Shown here piece by piece: positions 1 to 23,903 of a stretch of DNA of 64,000 bases. The notes under the pieces are model-generated. The model did no database searches. It was not told where the DNA came from and saw only the letters and a program-made list of their open reading frames with translations. The number at the start of each line of letters is the position of its first letter. The first letter of the stretch is position 1. The position numbers and the translations under genes were made by a program. Source of the DNA: an uncultured Gemmiger sp. (GTDB taxonomy: Bacteria; Bacillota; Clostridia; Oscillospirales; Ruminococcaceae); contig CALXAH010000003.1 in the NCBI GenBank assembly GCA_944386225.1, positions 1-64,000 of the forward strand, given 5' to 3'.

Positions 1-2036
1 GCCTGGGCCTCGTCAGCCCGGCGGTCTGCGGCTTCACTCATTTCCAGCAGCTCCTGGATTTTGGCGTCCCGCTCCTTGAGCATGGCCATGGCCTCTTGGT
101 ACTGCTTGTGGGTGGTGATGTCGCCATCCTTCACGGCCTGTACCAGTTCGGCAGGGGCGCTGGGCTTGGCGGCTGCGTAAAGCAGCGTAGGGGACAATTC
201 CTCCAGCACTTTCTGCTCGCGAGGTGTGCTGCCATCCATCAGTTTGGAAACCTGCAAAAGCCGCTCGGCTGCTTTGCGATTCAAACCCACGCTTTCGCAC
301 CACCGACCAAAGTTTTTTTCGCTGGCTGTAAACGCTCCATCGCCATTGCGACATTTTGTCGCAATGGTAACGCAAAGCGCGTCGTGTGCGATCGCCACGG
401 CATCAGCCATCCGGCGCAGGCCCATTTCGGCCATCTTCTTGCCGCTGGAATACTCACGCTCGGCCAGATGCAGGTCGGCCACCGTCTGGTCGTCCAGGCC
501 GGAGTAGTCAAACTCCGGAGCCGCCGAAATAGGGGCAACCTGGGCAATGCCCGAGGGTTCGTTCTCGCTCAGTGCATCCTCGGCAGAGGGGGAGCTGCTT
601 ACAGTGCCGGTCTTCATCTCCGAGCAATCGGTAGAAGTTTCCGCCTTCGGCAACTGCACGGCCACAACACTCTCGCCCGACATCGCAGCAGTATCCACAC
701 TCGGGGCACAGATCGTTTCGCCGCCACATACGGTCTCCATCCTTTCAACATACTCGGGACAACTCTCGGTCAGGCAGGATTCGTCAGCATTGGCAGGGCA
801 CTCTCTTGCACAGCCATTCGCGCAGCAGCTCTCTTTTCCACAGGTGCGGCACATGCAACTGACTCTGTCGGGTTCATCATCGTCCATCTGTCCGGCTTTC
901 TCTTGCCGATCCAGGTACCAGCCACAGCCGAGAAACGTTTTGTTGCAGATCTCCTGGTTCACGAATTTGTCACCGCAGATGGAGCACTGGAAGGCGTACT
1001 TCTTCCTGGTGCTGTTTTCCAATGGTTGAAGATATGGGCAACCATCGGGCGTGGTGGAATCATCCGCCGGACTGGTATCGACCTGCTCTTTCACAGCCGC
1101 ATCAGCGGCGGCGTCTTCGCACCTTGTATCATGGCTGCAACCATTCTGCGCGCAGTTCTGCTCTCCATCGCAGTATTTCCGGCCCATAGCTTTATGCCCT
1201 CCAGGGCAAGTACAGTCCTGCCGCTTGCAATCGGCACAGGTGCAAGTGGCGCTGCCCTTCTTCTCGTCAAGCAACTCCCAGCCTTTTTCTCTGGCTAAGT
1301 ACGCAAGTCTGCTCTGCACCGATTCCACTCTTGGATGCTCCTGTGCTGCCTTACGATCTGGCTTCCAAATCGCGCTGCTCTTCGGATCGAGGTATTGAAT
1401 GCAATAGGTCGCTTTTTCGCCTTCCGGATTCGGGCTTACCCGATACAACCACCCGGTCGCGGGGTCCTTGTAGATCACGGTGCTCTCCTCCTTCTTTTGC
1501 GCCCGCGCCTTGCCCGCCTCGATGGCGGCCAGGATGTGGGCTTTCTCCTGCTGCGGGGTCATATCCAGCCGGTGACCTCCCGGCCCGAAAAACCGCGCCA
1601 GCAACGCGGCCTTGGCGGCCATGCCGGCCTTGTTCTGGGCACACGTGACAGACAGGCTGTAGCGCCCCCTATTGCAAAAATCCGTGCCCCGCATACTGCC
1701 CCGGGAGAACCCAGCACTCAGCGTATCGGCGGCGTTGTCGTAGATCCACGCCTGTACCTCGTCCAGAAAAGTCAGGTCAAGGCTGTGTATTTTGAGTGTG
1801 CATTTGTCATCCGCGCTTCCGCTGTAATCGGTGGCGTAACTGATCTCGGGGGACATCCGGCACTCATAGCCTTTGACATCCTGGGTGTACCCCTTCTGCT
1901 GATCATCCCAGACCATAGGTCCCCAGGGCAGCAGGTACGGGCAGCCATTGCAGCCGGCGGTGTCCCGGTTGCCGGTGTTGTCGGCGCTTGTGCTCTTGGC
2001 CACCACCCGCCCGCATTTGCATATGTACTTGGTCAT
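1..2036 (-). CDS. Very long Cys-rich prophage protein with DUF3102-like C-terminal part (3' end off the window)
   Basis: Reading the minus strand from the ATG at 2036, one frame stays open to base 1, giving at least 678 residues; it has no stop in the window, so it continues past the left edge. The N-terminus (MTKYICKCGR) and residues 240-460 are full of CxxC and CxC pairs, suggesting several small metal-binding modules. From about residue 512 the character changes to a helical segment (WCESVGLNRKAAERLLQVSK, then ELVQAVKDGDITTHKQYQEA and a coiled coil) that resembles phage DUF3102 proteins. An internal GTG near 1478 has a good GGAGG, so a shorter internal product is possible. Its ATG overlaps the upstream DUF3846 stop (ATGA), so it belongs to the leftward phage operon. 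Function unknown; the DUF3102 assignment is from pattern only. Confidence 0.75.
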   Translation of the reverse strand, partial: MTKYICKCGRVVAKSTSADNTGNRDTAGCNGCPYLLPWGPMVWDDQQKGYTQDVKGYECRMSPEISYATDYSGSADDKCTLKIHSLDLTFLDEVQAWIYDNAADTLSAGFSRGSMRGTDFCNRGRYSLSVTCAQNKAGMAAKAALLARFFGPGGHRLDMTPQQEKAHILAAIEAGKARAQKKEESTVIYKDPATGWLYRVSPNPEGEKATYCIQYLDPKSSAIWKPDRKAAQEHPRVESVQSRLAYLAREKGWELLDEKKGSATCTCADCKRQDCTCPGGHKAMGRKYCDGEQNCAQNGCSHDTRCEDAAADAAVKEQVDTSPADDSTTPDGCPYLQPLENSTRKKYAFQCSICGDKFVNQEICNKTFLGCGWYLDRQEKAGQMDDDEPDRVSCMCRTCGKESCCANGCARECPANADESCLTESCPEYVERMETVCGGETICAPSVDTAAMSGESVVAVQLPKAETSTDCSEMKTGTVSSSPSAEDALSENEPSGIAQVAPISAAPEFDYSGLDDQTVADLHLAEREYSSGKKMAEMGLRRMADAVAIAHDALCVTIATKCRNGDGAFTASEKNFGRWCESVGLNRKAAERLLQVSKLMDGSTPREQKVLEELSPTLLYAAAKPSAPAELVQAVKDGDITTHKQYQEAMAMLKERDAKIQELLEMSEAADRRADEAQ

Positions 2037-2332
2037 GGTGCAGCCCTCCCCAGCATGTGCAGGATCAGAGCAGCGTCTCCATCGTCCAGGCTGCACATCT
2101 CATCGCCATCGATGCCCACCACCAGAATCGGGCCGACAAAGGAGATGTCCAGGAAATCGCAGTTGTATGGCAGGCCCCGCAGCCGTCCCTCTTCGTTACA
2201 GACGATTGCGGCATCCACACAAAAGGTCACCGTCTCGATATAGCCTCCCACGGCCTGCTGCAGCGCAGCCAGGGTGTTCTCCATCTCCACCAGCTCCGGT
2301 GGCCGGCCGGGGTCTTTACGAATCACTTTCAA
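2033..2332 (-). CDS. DUF3846 family phage protein
   Basis: 99 residues beginning MKVIRKDPGRPPELVEMENT and containing GGYIETVTF, CNEEGRLRGLPYNCDF and VGPILVVGIDGDE, the hallmark blocks of DUF3846. Members are common in phages and conjugative elements of Firmicutes, often beside DNA-modification and replication genes; the biochemical role is not known. It overlaps its downstream neighbour by 4 bases and its upstream neighbour by 4 bases, which indicates translational coupling in one leftward operon. Confidence 0.85.
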   Translation of the reverse strand: MKVIRKDPGRPPELVEMENTLAALQQAVGGYIETVTFCVDAAIVCNEEGRLRGLPYNCDFLDISFVGPILVVGIDGDEMCSLDDGDAALILHMLGRAAP

Positions 2333-5471: not shown

Positions 5472-7196
5472 ATGCCCACAGCTTTCATCCTCACACGATA
5501 CAGCACGGACAACCAGAATCCGGACACAACTGCCGTACAGGTGAAGAAATGCGCCGAGTACTGCCGGGCGCATCAGTTCACGATCCTGGACATCTTCTCC
5601 GATGAGGCGGTATCCGGGATGAAGCAGCATCGCCCGGAGTACGACCGGATGATGAACCTGTACCGGACTGGGAACGGAGCCGACACGGTGGTGATCTACG
5701 ACCAGAGCCGCATGTTCCGTGATATGGTGGAGTGGTTCACCTTTCGGCGGGAGCTGCAGGCCCTGGGCGCGCGGGTGGTGAGCGTAACGCAGCCTCTGGT
5801 GGGCGGCGATCTGCTGGACCCGTCCGTCTTCATCAACGAGGGAGCAATGGCCCTCTTTAACCAGATGCACGTCCTGGTCACCCGCCAGAAGGTCGTGGAA
5901 AAAATGCGCTTTATGGCTGCCCAGGGCCGCGCTTGCGGCGGCACTCCGCCCCTGGGCTATGATGTGGACGCCGATCGGCGCTATATCATCAATCCCTGGG
6001 AAGCCGAAACAGTGCGGAAGATCTTCACAATGCACGCCGCTGGCTCCAGTTACGGCGAGATCCTCACGGCACTGGCTGCCGAAGGCCGTACCACCAAAAG
6101 CGGGCGCCCATTCGGCAAAAACAGTCTGCACGATATCCTGAAAAACGAGAAGTACATCGGGCGTCTGATATACGGCGCGGTGCCGCGGGCGCATGGCGGC
6201 GCAAAGCGGAACAGCCACGGCCACCCCGCCGAGGGGCGTCTGGTGATCGAGAACGCTGTTCCCCGGATCGTAGATCAGCAGCTTTGGGAGGAGGTTCAGG
6301 CGCGTATGGCAAGCCGGCAGAACGAGGGCGGGCGCTACTCGGCCAAGAACGAGTATCTGCTTGCCGGAAAGGTATTTTGTGGGGAATGCGGCGGGGCCAT
6401 GGTGGTGACGGGCTGCAACCAAAGTAAGGACGGACGCCAGTACCGGTACTACAACTGTGTCAACAAGCGACAGACGCGCACCTGCGCCTCCAAGGGCGTT
6501 GGCGTCGGTACCCTGGAGGTTATGGTGGCCAAGGCCGTAAAAGACCAGCTGGGGGGCTCTGATTCGGCCTCACGCATTGCCAAGGTGGCAACAACGTACC
6601 GCAACGAGATCCAGCAAAGCGCCGCGCCGAAAAATGATGCCCTCGCAACGGAGCTGAAAGCCGTGGAAACACAGATCGGCAATCTGGTGAGCCTACTTGC
6701 CAGCGGGACGAAAAGCGATGCGATAACCGCGCGTCTGGCCGAGCTGGAAGAGCGCCGGGCACAGCTGCAGTCTTCCCTCCGGGTTCTGGGAGAAGCCGCC
6801 CGGACGGTGGGGCTTTCCGACGCCCAGATCGCCGAAGCGTCTGAAAAGCTGGCAGCCGCCAGCCCCGACACACCCGCCGGCCTGCGCACCTTGCTGGCCA
6901 CAGTCTTGCGTGTAAATGTATTCGCCGACCATATTGAGGTCTATACCCTGTTCGGGGGAGGATCACCGACCGAGCTTTCGCCTGATATCAAGACCGCGGC
7001 CCGTGAGTTTATAAACACGGTGGGTGCCGCTCCACCGGCACCAGTTCGTCGCGGACTTCGGTCCGTGCAAAAGCCTCGGTCTACTGACCGAGGCTTTCTT
7101 CATCCCTGCGTCGCTCCTCACTTCCCCACGAAATTTTGCTTTGCAAACTTTCGCGGGGCCCCGCCCTGCGGGCCGTTTCTGTTTACTGCGAGGTAA
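5472..7196 (+). CDS. Large serine recombinase (phage integrase)
   Basis: 574 residues from MPTAFILTRYSTDNQN (GGAAGGTG upstream). Residues 1-150 are the resolvase catalytic domain, with nucleophile Ser11 and DQSRMFRD; 165-270 the recombinase domain (PPLGYDVDADRRYIINPWEA, ILKNEKYIGRLIYG); 300-360 a zinc ribbon (CGECGG ... CVNKRQTRTC); 390-460 a coiled coil. It catalyses attP x attB integration. The last ~45 residues are doubtful: the frame runs through a terminator at 7071-7100 and into what looks like host DNA, giving a Pro/Phe-rich tail ending at 7196, six bases before the NUDIX gene. The native stop may have been lost at the junction or by an indel. Confidence 0.9.
   Translation: MPTAFILTRYSTDNQNPDTTAVQVKKCAEYCRAHQFTILDIFSDEAVSGMKQHRPEYDRMMNLYRTGNGADTVVIYDQSRMFRDMVEWFTFRRELQALGARVVSVTQPLVGGDLLDPSVFINEGAMALFNQMHVLVTRQKVVEKMRFMAAQGRACGGTPPLGYDVDADRRYIINPWEAETVRKIFTMHAAGSSYGEILTALAAEGRTTKSGRPFGKNSLHDILKNEKYIGRLIYGAVPRAHGGAKRNSHGHPAEGRLVIENAVPRIVDQQLWEEVQARMASRQNEGGRYSAKNEYLLAGKVFCGECGGAMVVTGCNQSKDGRQYRYYNCVNKRQTRTCASKGVGVGTLEVMVAKAVKDQLGGSDSASRIAKVATTYRNEIQQSAAPKNDALATELKAVETQIGNLVSLLASGTKSDAITARLAELEERRAQLQSSLRVLGEAARTVGLSDAQIAEASEKLAAASPDTPAGLRTLLATVLRVNVFADHIEVYTLFGGGSPTELSPDIKTAAREFINTVGAAPPAPVRRGLRSVQKPRSTDRGFLHPCVAPHFPTKFCFANFRGAPPCGPFLFTAR
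7071..7100 (+). terminator. Terminator inside the recombinase reading frame
   Basis: Perfect 10-base stem AAGCCTCGGT / ACCGAGGCTT with a 6-base loop and TTTCTT. Just upstream is a UUCG-tetraloop hairpin CGGAC-TTCG-GTCCG at 7051-7064. A terminator this strong should lie after the stop codon, so the open frame past this point is probably not native coding sequence. Confidence 0.7.
7126..7160. other. Imperfect palindrome, candidate attachment junction
   Basis: CGAAATTTTGC-TTT-GCAAACTTTCG (7131-7155) is an 11-base inverted repeat with one mismatch, between the recombinase terminator and the first host gene. Serine-integrase attachment sites are short imperfect palindromes next to the integrase gene, which fits, but the left end of the element is outside the window and no direct repeat can be shown. 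Confidence 0.25.
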
Positions 7197-19750: not shown

Positions 19751-21538
19751 GTGGAGAAACAGTACGCGGAACTGATCGCCGAAATGAAAGAGACCTACAA
19801 GAACTACAACCCCCGCCAGGCCAGTCTGGACGAGGCCCGGGCCCTGCTGACCCAGGCCGCCCAGGCCGCCATGGCGGCAGGCGACCTGCCCCAGGTGGAA
19901 CTGCCGGACTTCATCGTGGAGATCCCCGCGGACCCGAAAAACGGCGACGTGGCCTGCAACCTGGCCATGGCCGGCGCCCGGGTGTTCAAGAAGGCCCCCC
20001 GCCAGATCGCCGAGGCCATCCTGGCCCATCTGCCCGACCTGACGGACAGCCCCGTGGACCGGGTGGAGATCGCCGGCCCCGGCTTTCTGAACGTGTACCT
20101 GAGCACCGGGCCCTACACCGGCACCGTCTACGCCGCCACCCTGAACGAGGAGTACGGCCGCACCGACTGGGGCAAGGGCCAGAAGGTGAACGTGGAGTTT
20201 GTTTCCGCCAACCCCACCGGCCCCATGCACCTGGGCAACGCCCGGGGCGGCGCGCTGGGCGACTGCCTGGCCGCGGTGCTGGACTGGGCCGGCTGCGATG
20301 TGACCCGTGAGTTCTACGTGAATGACGCGGGCAACCAGATCCAGAAGTTCGGCAAGAGCCTGAGCGTGCGCTACCAGCAGATCTTTGTGGGCGAGGAGGC
20401 CGCTCCCCTGCCGGAGGACTGCTACCAGGGCGAGGACATCAAGGTTCTGGCCCGGGCCTTTGCGGATCAGGAAGGCGACAAGTGGATGACCGCCGACGAG
20501 GAGGCCCGCAAGCAGGCCCTGATCGACTTTGCCCTGCCCAAGAACATCGCCGGGCTGGAGCGGGATCTGGCCAAATACCGGATCACCTACGACGTGTGGT
20601 TCCGGGAGAGCACCCTGCACGACAGCGGCGCGGTGCAGGCGGTGGTGGACAAACTGCTGGCCAGCGGCGCCTGCTACAAGGCGGAGGACGGCGCCATCCT
20701 GTACCGCAGCGCCCAGTTCAGCGAGAAGTACGGCGCGGCCAACAAGCGCAAGGACGAGGACGAGGCCAAGGACGAGGTGCTGGTGCGTGCCAACGGCATC
20801 CCCACCTACTTTGCCGCCGACATCGCCTACCATTACAACAAGCTGGCGGTGCGGGGCTTTGACAAAGCCATCGACGTGTGGGGCGCGGACCATCACGGCC
20901 ACGTGGCCCGGATGAAGGGCGCCATGGACGCGGTGGGCCTGGACGGCACCAAGCTGGACGTGGTGCTGATGCAGCTGGTCAAGCTGGTGCGGGACGGCCA
21001 GCCCGTGCGGATGAGCAAGCGCACCGGCAAGGCCATCACCCTGACCGACCTGCTGGACGAGGTGCCCATCGACAGCGCCCGCTTCTTCTTCAACCTGCGG
21101 GAAGCGGGCAGCCAGGTGGAGTTTGACCTGGATCTGGCCGTCAAGGAGGACAGCGACAACCCGGTGTACTATGTGCAGTACGCCCACGCCCGTATCTGCT
21201 CCATCCTGAAGAAGCTGGCCGCCGCCGGCATCGAGTACGAGGGCATCCACGCCTGGGCGGGCTACACCTGGCCGGAAGAGGCCGAGCGGGACCTGATCCG
21301 CGCGGTGGGCGCCTTCCCCGCCGAGATCGTGACCGCGGCCAAGAACTACGACCCGGCCCGCATCACCCGGTACGTGATCGACCTGGCCGGCAGCTTCCAC
21401 AAGTTCTACAACAGCTGCCGCATCCTGGACGCCGAGCCCGCCACCCGGCAGGCCCGCATCGCCCTGTGCCTGGCGGTGAAGCAGGTTATCTTCAACGTGC
21501 TGACCATGTTCAAGATCACCGTGCCCGAGCAGATGTAA
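19751..21538 (+). CDS. argS: Arginine--tRNA ligase
   Basis: 595 residues from GTG 19751 (AGAGAGGAAA upstream). Class I synthetase: HIGH-type motif in SANPTGPMHLGNARGG (about residue 158), MSKRTGKAITL (about 421) and a C-terminal DALR anticodon domain (YVIDLAGSFHKFYNSCRILD). Charges tRNA-Arg. Last gene of its unit. Confidence 0.97.
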   Translation: MEKQYAELIAEMKETYKNYNPRQASLDEARALLTQAAQAAMAAGDLPQVELPDFIVEIPADPKNGDVACNLAMAGARVFKKAPRQIAEAILAHLPDLTDSPVDRVEIAGPGFLNVYLSTGPYTGTVYAATLNEEYGRTDWGKGQKVNVEFVSANPTGPMHLGNARGGALGDCLAAVLDWAGCDVTREFYVNDAGNQIQKFGKSLSVRYQQIFVGEEAAPLPEDCYQGEDIKVLARAFADQEGDKWMTADEEARKQALIDFALPKNIAGLERDLAKYRITYDVWFRESTLHDSGAVQAVVDKLLASGACYKAEDGAILYRSAQFSEKYGAANKRKDEDEAKDEVLVRANGIPTYFAADIAYHYNKLAVRGFDKAIDVWGADHHGHVARMKGAMDAVGLDGTKLDVVLMQLVKLVRDGQPVRMSKRTGKAITLTDLLDEVPIDSARFFFNLREAGSQVEFDLDLAVKEDSDNPVYYVQYAHARICSILKKLAAAGIEYEGIHAWAGYTWPEEAERDLIRAVGAFPAEIVTAAKNYDPARITRYVIDLAGSFHKFYNSCRILDAEPATRQARIALCLAVKQVIFNVLTMFKITVPEQM

Positions 21539-21577
21539 CAACACAAAACCCGCCCCGGTAACCCGGTGCGGGCATAG

Positions 21578-21614
21578 AAAAGGTGGATCGCATATGGCGA
21601 CCCACCTTCTTTAT
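21578..21614 (+). terminator. argS terminator
   Basis: AAGGTGGATCGC pairs with GCGACCCACCTT (one mismatch), followed by CTTTATTG. A second GC-rich hairpin (21548-21573) precedes it. Confidence 0.7.
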
Positions 21615-21713
21615 TGTACCGCAAAACCCGCCCCAATTTCAAGACAACATTTGTACAAATTTTGGGCGTTTTTTCCATATAGTTCGTCAATGGATTTTTC
21701 CCCTGCCTGCGTA

Positions 21714-21719
21714 TATAAT
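21714..21719 (+). promoter_or_regulatory. -10 element of the non-coding transcript
   Basis: TATAAT in the context CTGCGTATATAATATAGAC. No good -35 is visible 16-18 bases upstream, so this may need an activator or an alternative sigma factor. Confidence 0.5.
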
Positions 21720-21725
21720 ATAGAC

Positions 21726-23011
21726 AAAGAAAGACAGACAGCGAAAAGGAAAGGCTCAGGGGAGCCGGAAACGCTGACTATCGAAAGAAAGGAGCGATCC
21801 CGATGTCCAATACTGAACCCGTGCAGCAGTGGCAGGCACGGGGGCGCTGAACAAGAACCGCTTAACCAGATGCGGGTGGTAACCCGGAAAGACCAAATGA
21901 GCTGAGTTCTTAAAAAAGCGATCACCCCGTGTTCCTGCCGAAGAGGAACCCTTTAATATAGATGGTACAAGAAACGACTTGGTTTGAACGTTCGAAGATT
22001 CAAGAAATATTTTGAGTTGCGAAACAAACCCGATCGACTGGCCACCTAACAAACGATCAGAAGATTCTCATTTCGGTTTTTCCGAAGTGAAATACCAAAT
22101 TTATCTGACCGAACATTTTTTCAACAACAAGAGGCTTTGACGCCGATGCACAAGTAAATTTGTATCGCGCATCCCCTGTTTCGGAGATCCGAAACCGCAC
22201 CTTTCAAAAGCGTGGCTGCTTCTCAACAATGCGATGGCGGCGTTCAGACATCAGTCCACTGCGGGACGTGCAGGTCGGATAACCGGCATGCGGATGCACA
22301 ACTTCCAAAACTTGTGAGGTTTACTCCAATGTACTGAATTGTGATCGCCCTCGATCCCCAGGAGAAAGGGCAGGAAAACAATAGTCAGGTACTATTGCGA
22401 AGAACGGGGGCCCTAAACCCGTCCGTTGTACGAACAGCAAGGTCCGCACTTTCCTGATAAGAGAGCAGGCGGATAGCGTTCGTGGATACCGTTCATGGCT
22501 CCCGTTTTATTACCGCCCGAATGGGTCTGGTACAGCCGGCAAATGCATATCCGGATGCGGTGTACGCCCGGATGGCTGCCCGGAAAATTCGGAACAGGGT
22601 TTCCGAATGATTCTTCCTCAAAAGGAAAACGCGTTGAAACGTATCCCAAACCCCGAACCGCAAACGAAAAAATCTGTATACCGCCTCTGCCTTGCATCAT
22701 AAGCAACCAGCAGTTTCAAAGGCAACCCATGGATCTTTTTCAAAAGCATACGGGAATTAAGAACGAGTGATGTCCGCGTAAAACCGATTGGCAAGGCAGA
22801 ATTCGGAAAATTACCCCGATTTTGAATCAACTTTCGAGCAGATATAGGATTGGGATTTCTGGTAAATCTTCTATCAAACGTTTCATCCAATCGCGCAGAT
22901 CGATCCCTGTAAGGATATGAATGATCCGGCCGAAATACCACAGAATTAAGAGGGCAGTCCAATGTACTGAACAATTTCGCGCGAGCGCCGTGTCCGGCGC
23001 TCGCGTTTTTT
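21726..23011 (+). ncRNA. Candidate large structured non-coding RNA (about 1.28 kb)
   Basis: No frame here on either strand exceeds about 140 codons, has an RBS, or resembles a protein, and base composition is clearly lower in GC than the flanking genes. The region is bounded by a -10 box and a strong terminator. It holds many perfect hairpins: CAGCG/CGCTG enclosing GGCTC/GAGCC (21739-21776), CCCGTGC/GCACGGG (21818-21842), GTTCCT/AGGAAC (21931-21949), CATTTCGG/CCGAAGTG (22069-22089), GTTTCGG/CCGAAAC (22178-22195), CAATAGT/ACTATTG (22379-22397), ATTCGGAA/TTCCGAAT (22587-22608), TTCCT/AGGAA (22614-22627). TCCAATGTACTGAA occurs at 22325 and 22958, with TCCAATACTGAA at 21806. It matches no large bacterial RNA class I can recall in detail (OLE, GOLLD, ROOL, group II intron, tmRNA, RNase P); a known class cannot be excluded. 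Confidence 0.65.
22980..23011 (+). terminator. Terminator of the non-coding transcript
   Basis: Perfect 10-base stem CGCGAGCGCC / GGCGCTCGCG with a 6-base loop and TTTTTT. There is no gene immediately upstream of it on the plus strand other than the non-coding region. Confidence 0.9.
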
Positions 23012-23174: not shown

Positions 23175-23903
23175 TTGAAGCCTGTACAACAGCCCAAACA
23201 TCCCGTGCTGGGCATCCTGGGAGGCCTGGGGCCCATGAGCACGGTCTACTTTTACGAGATGCTTACCCGGCATACCGTGGCCCACTGCGACCAGGATCAT
23301 CTGGACATCGTGATCTCCAGCCGGGCCACCACCCCCGACCGCACCGCCTATATCCTGGGCCAGAGCCACGAGGATCCCTTTGCGGTGATGGAACAGGACG
23401 CCCGGATGCTGGTGGAATACGGCGCCACGCTGCTGGCCATTCCCTGCAACACGGCCCATTATTTTTACGACCGGCTTTCCCGCAGCCTACCGGTGCCGGT
23501 GCTGAACATGGTGCAGCTTACCGCCCGTCAGGCCAAAAAGATGGGCTGCACCAAGCTGGGTATTCTGGCCACCACCGGCACGGTGGCCAGCGGCACCTAC
23601 CAGGCCGTCTGCGAGGCAGAGGGGCTGCAGTGGGCAGTTCCCTCCCCGGCCCGGCAGTCCGCTTTGATGGAGATCATCTACTGCCAGATCAAGCAGGGCC
23701 AGCGGGCGGATATGACCCGCTTTATGGAAATTGCCGACGAGCTGCGTGCCGCCGGCTGTCAGCAGGCGGTGCTGGGCTGCACTGAACTGTCCCTGATCAA
23801 GCGGGACGAGGGGCTGGATTCCTTCTTCCTGGACAGCACCGAAGTGCTGGCCAAAGAAACCCTGGCCGTATGTGGAAAGCCCAGCGAAGGGTTTTCCTTC
23901 TGA
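23175..23903 (+). CDS. Aspartate/glutamate racemase family protein
   Basis: 242 residues from TTG 23175 with GGGGGG upstream. GILGGLGPMSTVYFYEMLTR at the N-terminus and the two Cys motifs AIPCNTAHYFYDRL and AVLGCTELSLI match the PLP-independent Asp/Glu racemase (YgeA/RacX) group. Likely interconverts L- and D-aspartate or another acidic or broad-spectrum amino acid; substrate is not readable. A GC hairpin (GGCGCCG...CGGCGCC, 23912-23939) follows the stop. Confidence 0.85.
   Translation: MKPVQQPKHPVLGILGGLGPMSTVYFYEMLTRHTVAHCDQDHLDIVISSRATTPDRTAYILGQSHEDPFAVMEQDARMLVEYGATLLAIPCNTAHYFYDRLSRSLPVPVLNMVQLTARQAKKMGCTKLGILATTGTVASGTYQAVCEAEGLQWAVPSPARQSALMEIIYCQIKQGQRADMTRFMEIADELRAAGCQQAVLGCTELSLIKRDEGLDSFFLDSTEVLAKETLAVCGKPSEGFSF

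Follow-up and report, generated by a model that had tools for sequence, protein, structure and literature searches.

A stretch of about 1.29 kb in an uncultured Gemmiger species looks like a conserved, structured, single-copy, stand-alone RNA gene (positions 21726–23011, plus strand, of the window, that is, of the whole 64,000-nucleotide stretch of DNA that was analyzed), and spaced along it are ribosome-binding sites that are each followed by a start codon and an early stop. Comparison with relatives fixes the boundaries of the gene and establishes its conservation, its structure and selection for a start with an early stop, and from the sequence we infer that ribosomes load at these mini-ORFs and that their cycling or parking serves a regulatory role rather than being a by-product. 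Our preferred reading, to which we give a probability of roughly 0.45, is that this structured RNA is built to hold cycling or parked ribosomes for regulation and is not the mRNA of a protein. Bacteria have few large RNAs that yield no protein, and most of these lack a known mechanism. Selection at the modules described here keeps the instruction "bind a ribosome, start, stop early," which is a readable clue to the role, and this clue ties a large structured RNA to translation in a way that can be tested by profiling. Genes of this kind can escape both RNA searches that throw out ORFs and gene finders that ignore very short ones.

The element lies between argS, which ends at 21538, and an Asp/Glu racemase gene at 23175–23903 (gene names partly by eye), as the first-pass annotation had placed it, and the lower GC content (0.48–0.51 inside versus 0.59–0.68 in the flanks), the TATAAT and the perfect terminator that it had reported are all there. 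An inverted repeat at 21539–21625, directly after argS (by eye), is probably the argS terminator. The −10 element TATAAT (21714–21719, plus strand) was recognized by sequence and by an alignment of 14 loci from three genera, these first loci of g1, g58, and g25 having TATA[AGT]TATAGAC in common. About 24 nt upstream of it, the same alignment shows a TTCGTCA box (21683–21689, plus strand), at which position relatives have TTG[TC]CAAT. The spacing of this conserved TTG[TC]CAAT-like box to the −10 element differs from that of a standard sigma-A promoter, and the plus-strand promoter is absent from the output of a consensus promoter scan of the window, which has the −10 element and no standard −35. 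At the matching place in other groups, relatives carry TTGACA and, after 17 nt, TATTAT, TATAAT, or TACAAT (by eye). The predicted transcript (21726–23011, plus strand, ∼1.29 kb) is placed by the −10 element at its start and at its end by a strong intrinsic terminator (∼22979–23011, plus strand), which has an 11-bp stem (CGCGAGCGCCG/CGGCGCTCGCG), the loop TGTC and T6, and whose stem varies on both sides among genera.

Eight ORFs of at least 60 amino acids overlap 21726–23011, and stops or frameshifts break each of them in at least two of three genus relatives, which speaks against a hidden protein. Two of the eight (22413–22706, minus strand, and 21594–21905, plus strand) are still open in the nearest relative, L027, and none was found to be kept as a long frame across the three relatives. 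The earlier statement that no plausible protein is encoded thus stands for long frames, among which the conserved reading frame named as evidence to the contrary did not appear, but not for a 15-codon ORF and the mini-ORFs, which are kept. Over its full length the element is 95.5, 84.9, and 82.3% identical to the three genus relatives, compared with 91.0, 80.0, and 76.4% for the preceding DNA and 90.2, 76.1, and 68.6% for the DNA that follows. At third codon positions, identity is 95.0, 86.4, and 86.9% in argS and 87.6, 74.4, and 73.6% in the racemase gene, and by these figures the conservation of the element ranks between the two. With two of these relatives its identity falls below that of the argS third positions (0.849 and 0.823 versus 0.864 and 0.869), which counts against a role in engaging ribosomes.

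The RNA is predicted to fold strongly in several lineages. Relative to dinucleotide shuffles (25 or 60 per sequence, 25 for each window value), the z-scores of the fold energy are −4.8 for the window RNA, −4.5 for L016, −2.5 for L022, −4.9 for L096 and −1.6 for L101, and with the last 60 nt removed they are −3.9, −3.9, −1.8, −4.2, and −0.15, respectively; the weak fold of L101 and the moderate one of L022 also count against a structured RNA that holds ribosomes. Consensus folds gave z-scores of −12 (g1), −10.5 (g58), −12.7 (g25), and −6.2 (L096 group) against 15 column shuffles each, values that are flattered because column shuffles break dinucleotides. Compensatory base changes, which the first-pass annotation had asked for, exceed those of shuffled alignments in g1 (21 pairs versus a mean of 9.3 and a maximum of 13) and g58 (20 versus 10.7 and 16) but not in g25 (26 versus 19.9 and 28) nor, with its three sequences, in the L096 group (11 versus 13.8), two results that weigh against the ribosome-holding reading, and six close L101-type sequences have no change on both sides of a pair. 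Compensatory changes are also in excess in the 3′ domain, aligned for 12 copies of which 11 are distinct (the structure being derived from that alignment), where 96.4% of cells pair, 20 cells are changed on both sides compared with 7.8 after shuffling (0 of 500 shuffles), and seven pairs have a both-side change compared with 4.5 (11 of 500); further pair types are not in excess there (18 versus 18.9). Ahead of the last mini-ORF, the aligned g25, g58, and g20 copies have a hairpin with the loop AUGUGAA[GA]CnACAA. Two predicted pairings, if right, would allow modules to be opened or closed by the fold: in L101, nucleotides ahead of the first mini-ORF would pair with the Shine-Dalgarno sequence and codons of the second, and in the L096 group the start of the 5′ ORF is complementary to part of its coding sequence (GCTTGTC/GACAAGC, by eye). 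A separate hairpin for every Shine-Dalgarno sequence, formed with the CC before the AUG, was considered by eye and dropped as unproven.

The recurring motif that had drawn attention to the element, TCCAATGTACTGAA, is present at 22325 and 22958 as described, and it is a mini-ORF consisting of a Shine-Dalgarno sequence, a spacer ending in CC, and ATG-TAC-TGA (Met-Tyr-stop). The term non-coding is therefore inexact: no long protein is encoded, but the motif is a ribosome-binding site with a two-codon ORF, and an ORF of 15–16 codons is present in addition. The supposed shorter form of the motif at 21806 is not a copy; it lies inside this ORF and is not conserved in other genera. The Shine-Dalgarno sequence of the ORF, AAAGGAG (21788–21794, plus strand), and the ORF itself, MSNTEPVQQWQARGR* (21803–21850, plus strand), occur in all 16 Gemmiger-Fournierella copies, with 15 codons in g1 and 16 elsewhere, frame and length being kept in all 12 copies outside g1. 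Further downstream on the same strand, GAGG (22131–22134), a spacer and ATG-CAC-AAG-TAA (22146–22157) form a Met-His-Lys-stop mini-ORF (22131–22157) found in all four genus copies, which reads Met-His-Arg in L025 and whose context, aagaggctt..CC[AG]ATG, recurs with ATG-TAC-stop in g25 and g20. A Met-Tyr-stop mini-ORF (22316–22337, plus strand; GAGG at 22316–22319, a spacer, and ATG-TAC-TGA at 22329–22337) is likewise in all four genus copies, with TGA as its stop in three and TAA in one. Less certain is a possible mini-ORF with a weak Shine-Dalgarno sequence, ATG-TCC-GCG-TAA (22770–22781, plus strand), which is in three of four genus copies and has no counterpart in scans of other genera. The most conserved module is the last one (22950–22970, plus strand; GAGGG at 22950–22954, CAGTCCA, and ATG-TAC-TGA at 22962–22970), which fits GAGGG[CT]AGnCCAATGTACTRA in 16 of 16 Gemmiger-Fournierella copies and ends 8–9 nt ahead of the terminator.

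Relatives carry comparable series: Met-Tyr, Met-Trp, Met-Tyr in g58; Met-Tyr, Met-Cys, Met-Tyr in g20 and in g25, where the scan of L088 (from an 84% complete genome) lacks Met-Cys; Met-Asp, Met-Gln, and Met-Glu followed by Met-Tyr in L096, L136, and L137; and Met-Gly-Asn, Met-Tyr and an eight-codon ORF in L101. Where sites correspond, the start does not change, the codon after it may, and a stop comes next, with TGA, TAA, and TAG interchanging. In five g58 species, for example, the stop is TGA, TGA, TAG, TGA, and TAA at a Met-Tyr site and TAA, TGA, TAA, TAG, and TAA at the Met-Trp site, and three related Clostridia have ATG-GAC-TGA, ATG-CAG-TAA, and ATG-GAG-TAA together with Met-Tyr followed by TGA, TAA, or TAG. 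The same layout is found in another family of the order, where genome G589 has a 22-codon ORF, two Met-Tyr-stop sites, the last just ahead of the terminator, and a terminator; this RNA supports the view that the modules engage ribosomes. Its locus (L184, minus strand, module at ∼1900–1985 of the reverse complement) corresponds to an RNA of ∼0.7–0.8 kb with a promoter and the ORF MASEPQSECITEYTAMGACHRQ*. Genome G636 has one Met-Tyr-TAG, with GAGAGGACAGTCCAATGTACTAG right behind a promoter-like stretch (L183, minus strand, ∼640–700 of the reverse complement).

The association of start and early stop was also counted. Across 28 RNAs, 64 of the 79 ATGs preceded by both a Shine-Dalgarno core and CC[AG] end within three codons, as opposed to 61 of 363 other ATGs, by a criterion that was chosen after the motif had been seen, which counts against the ribosome-engaging interpretation. 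A core without CC[AG] (4 of 38) and CC[AG] alone (4 of 20) are not enriched over ATGs with neither (53 of 305), and hence the signal belongs to the whole module; the lack of early stops behind bare Shine-Dalgarno cores tempers that interpretation. Because the 28 RNAs are related, and some were found by means of the 3′ mini-ORF, as part of a pattern or model, the count was repeated without the 3′ site, giving 40 of 55 versus 61 of 363 overall, 29 of 33 versus 56 of 279 in the 16 Gemmiger-Fournierella copies, 16 of 23 versus 28 of 147 in 13 representatives (p = 2.4e-6), and 8 of 11 versus 15 of 82 in six lineages (p = 5e-4). G589 and G636 were left out of these counts, and the window contributes the AUGs at 21803, 22146, 22329, and 22962. 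Genome-wide, the pattern GAGGN{5,8}CCRATGNNNTRA, which was derived from these RNAs themselves, occurs 4, 5, 3, 4, and 3 times in G000, G001, G027, G221, and G022, with 2, 2, 3, 3, and 2 of these occurrences inside the RNA and no match for the same pattern run backwards; one of two occurrences in G945 and one of five in G946 are inside the RNA (0 and 1 backwards). Six of seven inspected matches outside the RNA are in open frames of 121–512 codons, the exception being L155.

A DNA search found the element at full length in all four genomes of the genus, its own included, and in 14 of 396 genomes of the family, the ten outside the genus being matched via the 3′ end alone. A covariance model of the 3′ core, R1, raised this to 16 of 396 family genomes in four genera (E ≤ 5.2e-15); the RNA is therefore present, with a diverged body, in three further genera. 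Altogether R1 matched 34 of the 396, namely the 16 copies, a different RNA with modules in G081, and others that were module-free when scanned except for one in G268 (L080), which was taken to be an IS3-like transposase gene (by eye). In the order, R1 matched 35 of 295 genomes at E 0.01, and inspection, by a two-strand rescan of 48 loci and 19 further stretches, identified real RNAs besides that of the window genome in G589 (L043, L184) and G636 (L056, L183); none of the other rescanned loci has a module by the pattern used. Four of 291 genomes matched in the class, two of which share a dispersed sequence, GACGGCAGACCAATGTCATAA, while one match looks coding. This sequence stands in differing contexts in the two Clostridia genomes (L112, L114, and L116, twice in G839).

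Scanning a named genome collection of 84,980 species with a pattern turned up 21 loci. Fourteen are titled Gemmiger, Fournierella, Candidatus Faecalibacterium or Oscillospiraceae, the family in which NCBI taxonomy places Gemmiger and Fournierella (now Allofournierella); five are from Lachnospiraceae and have one RNA in common (L092, L101, L103, L106, L107); and the other two are L096, from an uncultured Clostridia bacterium, and a lone Lachnospiraceae match, L104. RNAs with the same modules thus occur in Lachnospiraceae and other Clostridia as well. Searches started from these gave 7 matches in 200 genomes for the L101 family, with RNAs in G946, G1064, G976, and G1053 (further relatives being L129, L130, and L132) and three matches that look coding (L131, L133, L134), and 8 in 150 for the L096 family, with clear copies in G945, G1168, and G1296 (further relatives being L136 and L137) and five weak loci without a module (L138–L142). 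Between genera the body mostly aligns poorly, while the promoter, first ORF, mini-ORFs and terminator persist. Homology between the groups would rest on the likeness of the modules, as the bodies are not alignable, and module order differs: the long ORF opens the series in the RNAs of Gemmiger-Fournierella, L096, and G589 and closes it in those of L101, L130, and L132. A phage or plasmid origin of the window element, as for ROOL and GOLLD, was rejected, since searches with it through 50,697 phage and 72,556 plasmid records found nothing; IMG/VR has one exact motif match, within an apparent phage protein gene (by eye).

The element had been put forward as a candidate undescribed structured RNA of ∼1.28 kb without the known landmarks of tmRNA, RNase P, group II introns, OLE, GOLLD, or ROOL, and the searches bear this out for an RNA of ∼1.29 kb. 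Rfam 15 (4227 models, gathering threshold), which we take to include OLE, ROOL, GOLLD, and group I and II introns, has no match at the element, the best sub-threshold score being 24.7 against the 50 bits required, and further covariance-model searches gave nothing near threshold. No family was matched inside the RNAs at L101, L096, L087, L104, and L089 or at L130, L132, L136, L137, L022, and L016, around which RNase P, T-box and tRNAs were the only matches. ARAGORN finds no tmRNA in the window, and the tmRNA of this genome, at 154 bits, is encoded on a different contig, so that the element was rejected both as a tmRNA and as a substitute for a missing one. The raiA/ModT model (RF03072) has no match in the window and matched none of seven genomes, the control likewise being matched in none. 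No such RNA was recognized from the titles and opening lines of abstracts of the open-access literature, a body of work that mostly excludes subscription papers and preprints, nor does one appear in the available portions of PMC11109978, PMC2864571, and PMC5643018. Judged against Rfam 15 and this literature, the evidence suggests an undescribed kind of RNA.

Like OLE, GOLLD, ROOL, and raiA/ModT, the window RNA is a long, structured, stand-alone RNA gene of the Bacillota without a long ORF, but it matches no covariance model, and we know of no array of mini-ORFs in those classes. Its modules resemble the minigenes of axe-txe and of the phage lambda bar regions, the latter acting through tRNA starvation, in having a Shine-Dalgarno sequence, ATG, one sense codon and a stop; the combination of Shine-Dalgarno sequence, ATG, one or two sense codons and stop appears from its sequence conservation to be under selection and, unlike those minigenes, recurs in several bacterial families. 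STAB-SD stabilizers also bind ribosomes without a protein product and need no start or stop codon, whereas the window RNA keeps both. Dual-function sRNAs combine a regulatory RNA with a small ORF, as here, but they encode one working peptide, while the peptides of the window RNA would be of 2–3 residues at most sites and variable in those residues. GOLLD is reportedly bound by ribosomes in pull-downs, and OLE may sequester RpsU (PMC12286853, PMC12054373). The axe-txe mini-ORFs belong to a gene's leader and have their effect in cis (PMC8708949), in contrast to the several that are lined up here in a dedicated structured RNA gene.

In the mechanism that we favor, the RNA would have a promoter and a terminator to itself and would fold along its length, presenting three to five spaced modules, each with a Shine-Dalgarno sequence, a spacer ending in CC, AUG and an early stop: one ORF of 15–16 codons and several mini-ORFs of two or three. 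An initiating ribosome would make one or two peptide bonds and terminate, and since its anti-Shine-Dalgarno sequence would then still be beside the Shine-Dalgarno sequence, it could start again in place or remain attached. The RNA would thus carry cycling or parked ribosomes at fixed places, either titrating initiating ribosomes or particular tRNAs in trans or acting as a sensor that reports the status of translation through its fold, uses that, like protection of the RNA itself, would fit the sequence data. The accessible text of one study describes minigene toxicity as greatest at two codons and rising with a strong Shine-Dalgarno sequence because the ribosome re-initiates without leaving, and it describes the axe-txe minigenes as non-toxic and acting only in cis, which counts against the proposed role (PMC8708949). 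Two further points weigh against it, namely that the 1.3-kb body exceeds what merely carrying mini-ORFs needs and that L130 and L132 contain Shine-Dalgarno-like sites without ATG. An extended version, possible but rather unlikely, would make these RNAs a new class of the Clostridia that acts in trans, the row of start-stops capturing initiating ribosomes with initiator and second tRNAs and so buffering, sensing or throttling translation, with the fold setting the number of open modules.

The main rival is self-protection of the RNA, a serious explanation that we nevertheless consider doubtful, in which the mini-ORFs act only in cis: bound ribosomes would shield a long RNA that is not translated elsewhere from nucleases, as at STAB-SD, or aid its folding, while the structure, as a scaffold, sponge or ribonucleoprotein, does the real job. 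The spread of sites along the RNA, one of them beside the terminator, and the strong fold of the window RNA, L016 and L096 fit this, and ribosome binding at minigene sites has been proposed to protect mRNA (PMC8708949, in its accessible part). A bare Shine-Dalgarno sequence would suffice for shielding, however, which leaves the kept ATG and early stop with a variable codon between them unexplained, and RNAs with short bodies (∼0.2 kb in L130, ∼0.43 kb in L101) still bear modules.

It is improbable that the product is instead a small peptide, either one of 15–22 codons or a set of fMet dipeptides. Candidates would be M..EEP.Q.. in Gemmiger-Fournierella, MDLEPGQTSTRVVIQ in L096, MASEPQSECITEYTAMGACHRQ in G589 and MDIEEPIH in the L101 group, and this explanation draws on good Shine-Dalgarno sequences, on the presence of the ORF in 16 of 16 copies and on an EP core near its start that recurs in the Gemmiger-Fournierella, L096, G589, and L101 groups, which may reflect homology or chance. 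In the three L096-group copies, where 4, 4, and 6 columns of 16 codons vary by codon position, of the eight sense codons that vary, three have synonymous changes alone, and the stop is not constant either. For the 12 copies that are not from g1, by contrast, variable columns number 5, 3, and 5 by codon position over 17 codons, without a third-position excess, which makes the reading frame seem more important than the peptide it encodes; moreover, the mini-ORF codon shifts among Tyr, Cys, Trp, Asp, Glu, Gln, and Asn, and a structured body of ∼1 kb would be superfluous.

Still less probable is that the RNA serves as a long leader, with translation-dependent attenuation controlling the gene behind it. 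An ORF that ends at a terminator stem is an arrangement known from attenuators, and the mini-ORF end 8–9 nt from the stem, the stop of the last ORF that abuts it in L101, L130, and L132, and the racemase gene downstream in g1 and g25 are all in keeping with it. The gene 3′ of the RNA differs by lineage, however, being a racemase gene, a reductase-like gene in the L096 group, or a gene that by eye appears convergent in the Lachnospiraceae loci L130 and L132, so that the constant downstream gene expected of a cis leader is not found across lineages, and in L018 the racemase gene starts ∼1.8 kb past the terminator. Finally, it is very improbable that the RNA is a CsrB-like decoy whose GGA sites bind CsrA, with an incidental ATG-stop pattern, in favor of which are the recurring GGA motifs, the AAAGGA sites without ATG in L130 and L132 and the presence of CsrA in G221 and G946, as this leaves the kept stop codons unexplained and five of seven carrier genomes have no CsrA match at E 0.001 (control matched in 3 of 14), including the window's own G000, which therefore speaks against a decoy there.

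Some minor observations concern the relatives. In L096, L136, and L137 the RNA precedes a dehydrogenase/reductase-like gene (QIGEGNFLRAF) in the way that it precedes the racemase gene in g1 and g25. The RNAs of L130 and L132 (minus strand, from the family of G946) are short and have AAAGGA..ACCACC sites without ATG beside normal modules, and their ORFs, MDNQVH* and MDNEIR*, end at the terminator stem. L104 has a lone GGAGGGCAGTCCAATGTACTAA at ∼5859–5960, upstream of an ABC transporter ATPase gene (LivG-like by eye), which is possibly a single mini-ORF leader or a chance occurrence; about one chance match is estimated for the pattern that gave the 21 loci, and this may be that one. L089 (G081, g79; 1628–2207, minus strand) is a relative of ∼0.5 kb with Met-Glu-Arg-stop and Met-Asn-stop, in which there are two similar small ORFs, MRRKMQAKPMDSGEDTPKG and MNRKLQAAPKTDGEDTPKD, and GAGGATACGCC recurs three times.
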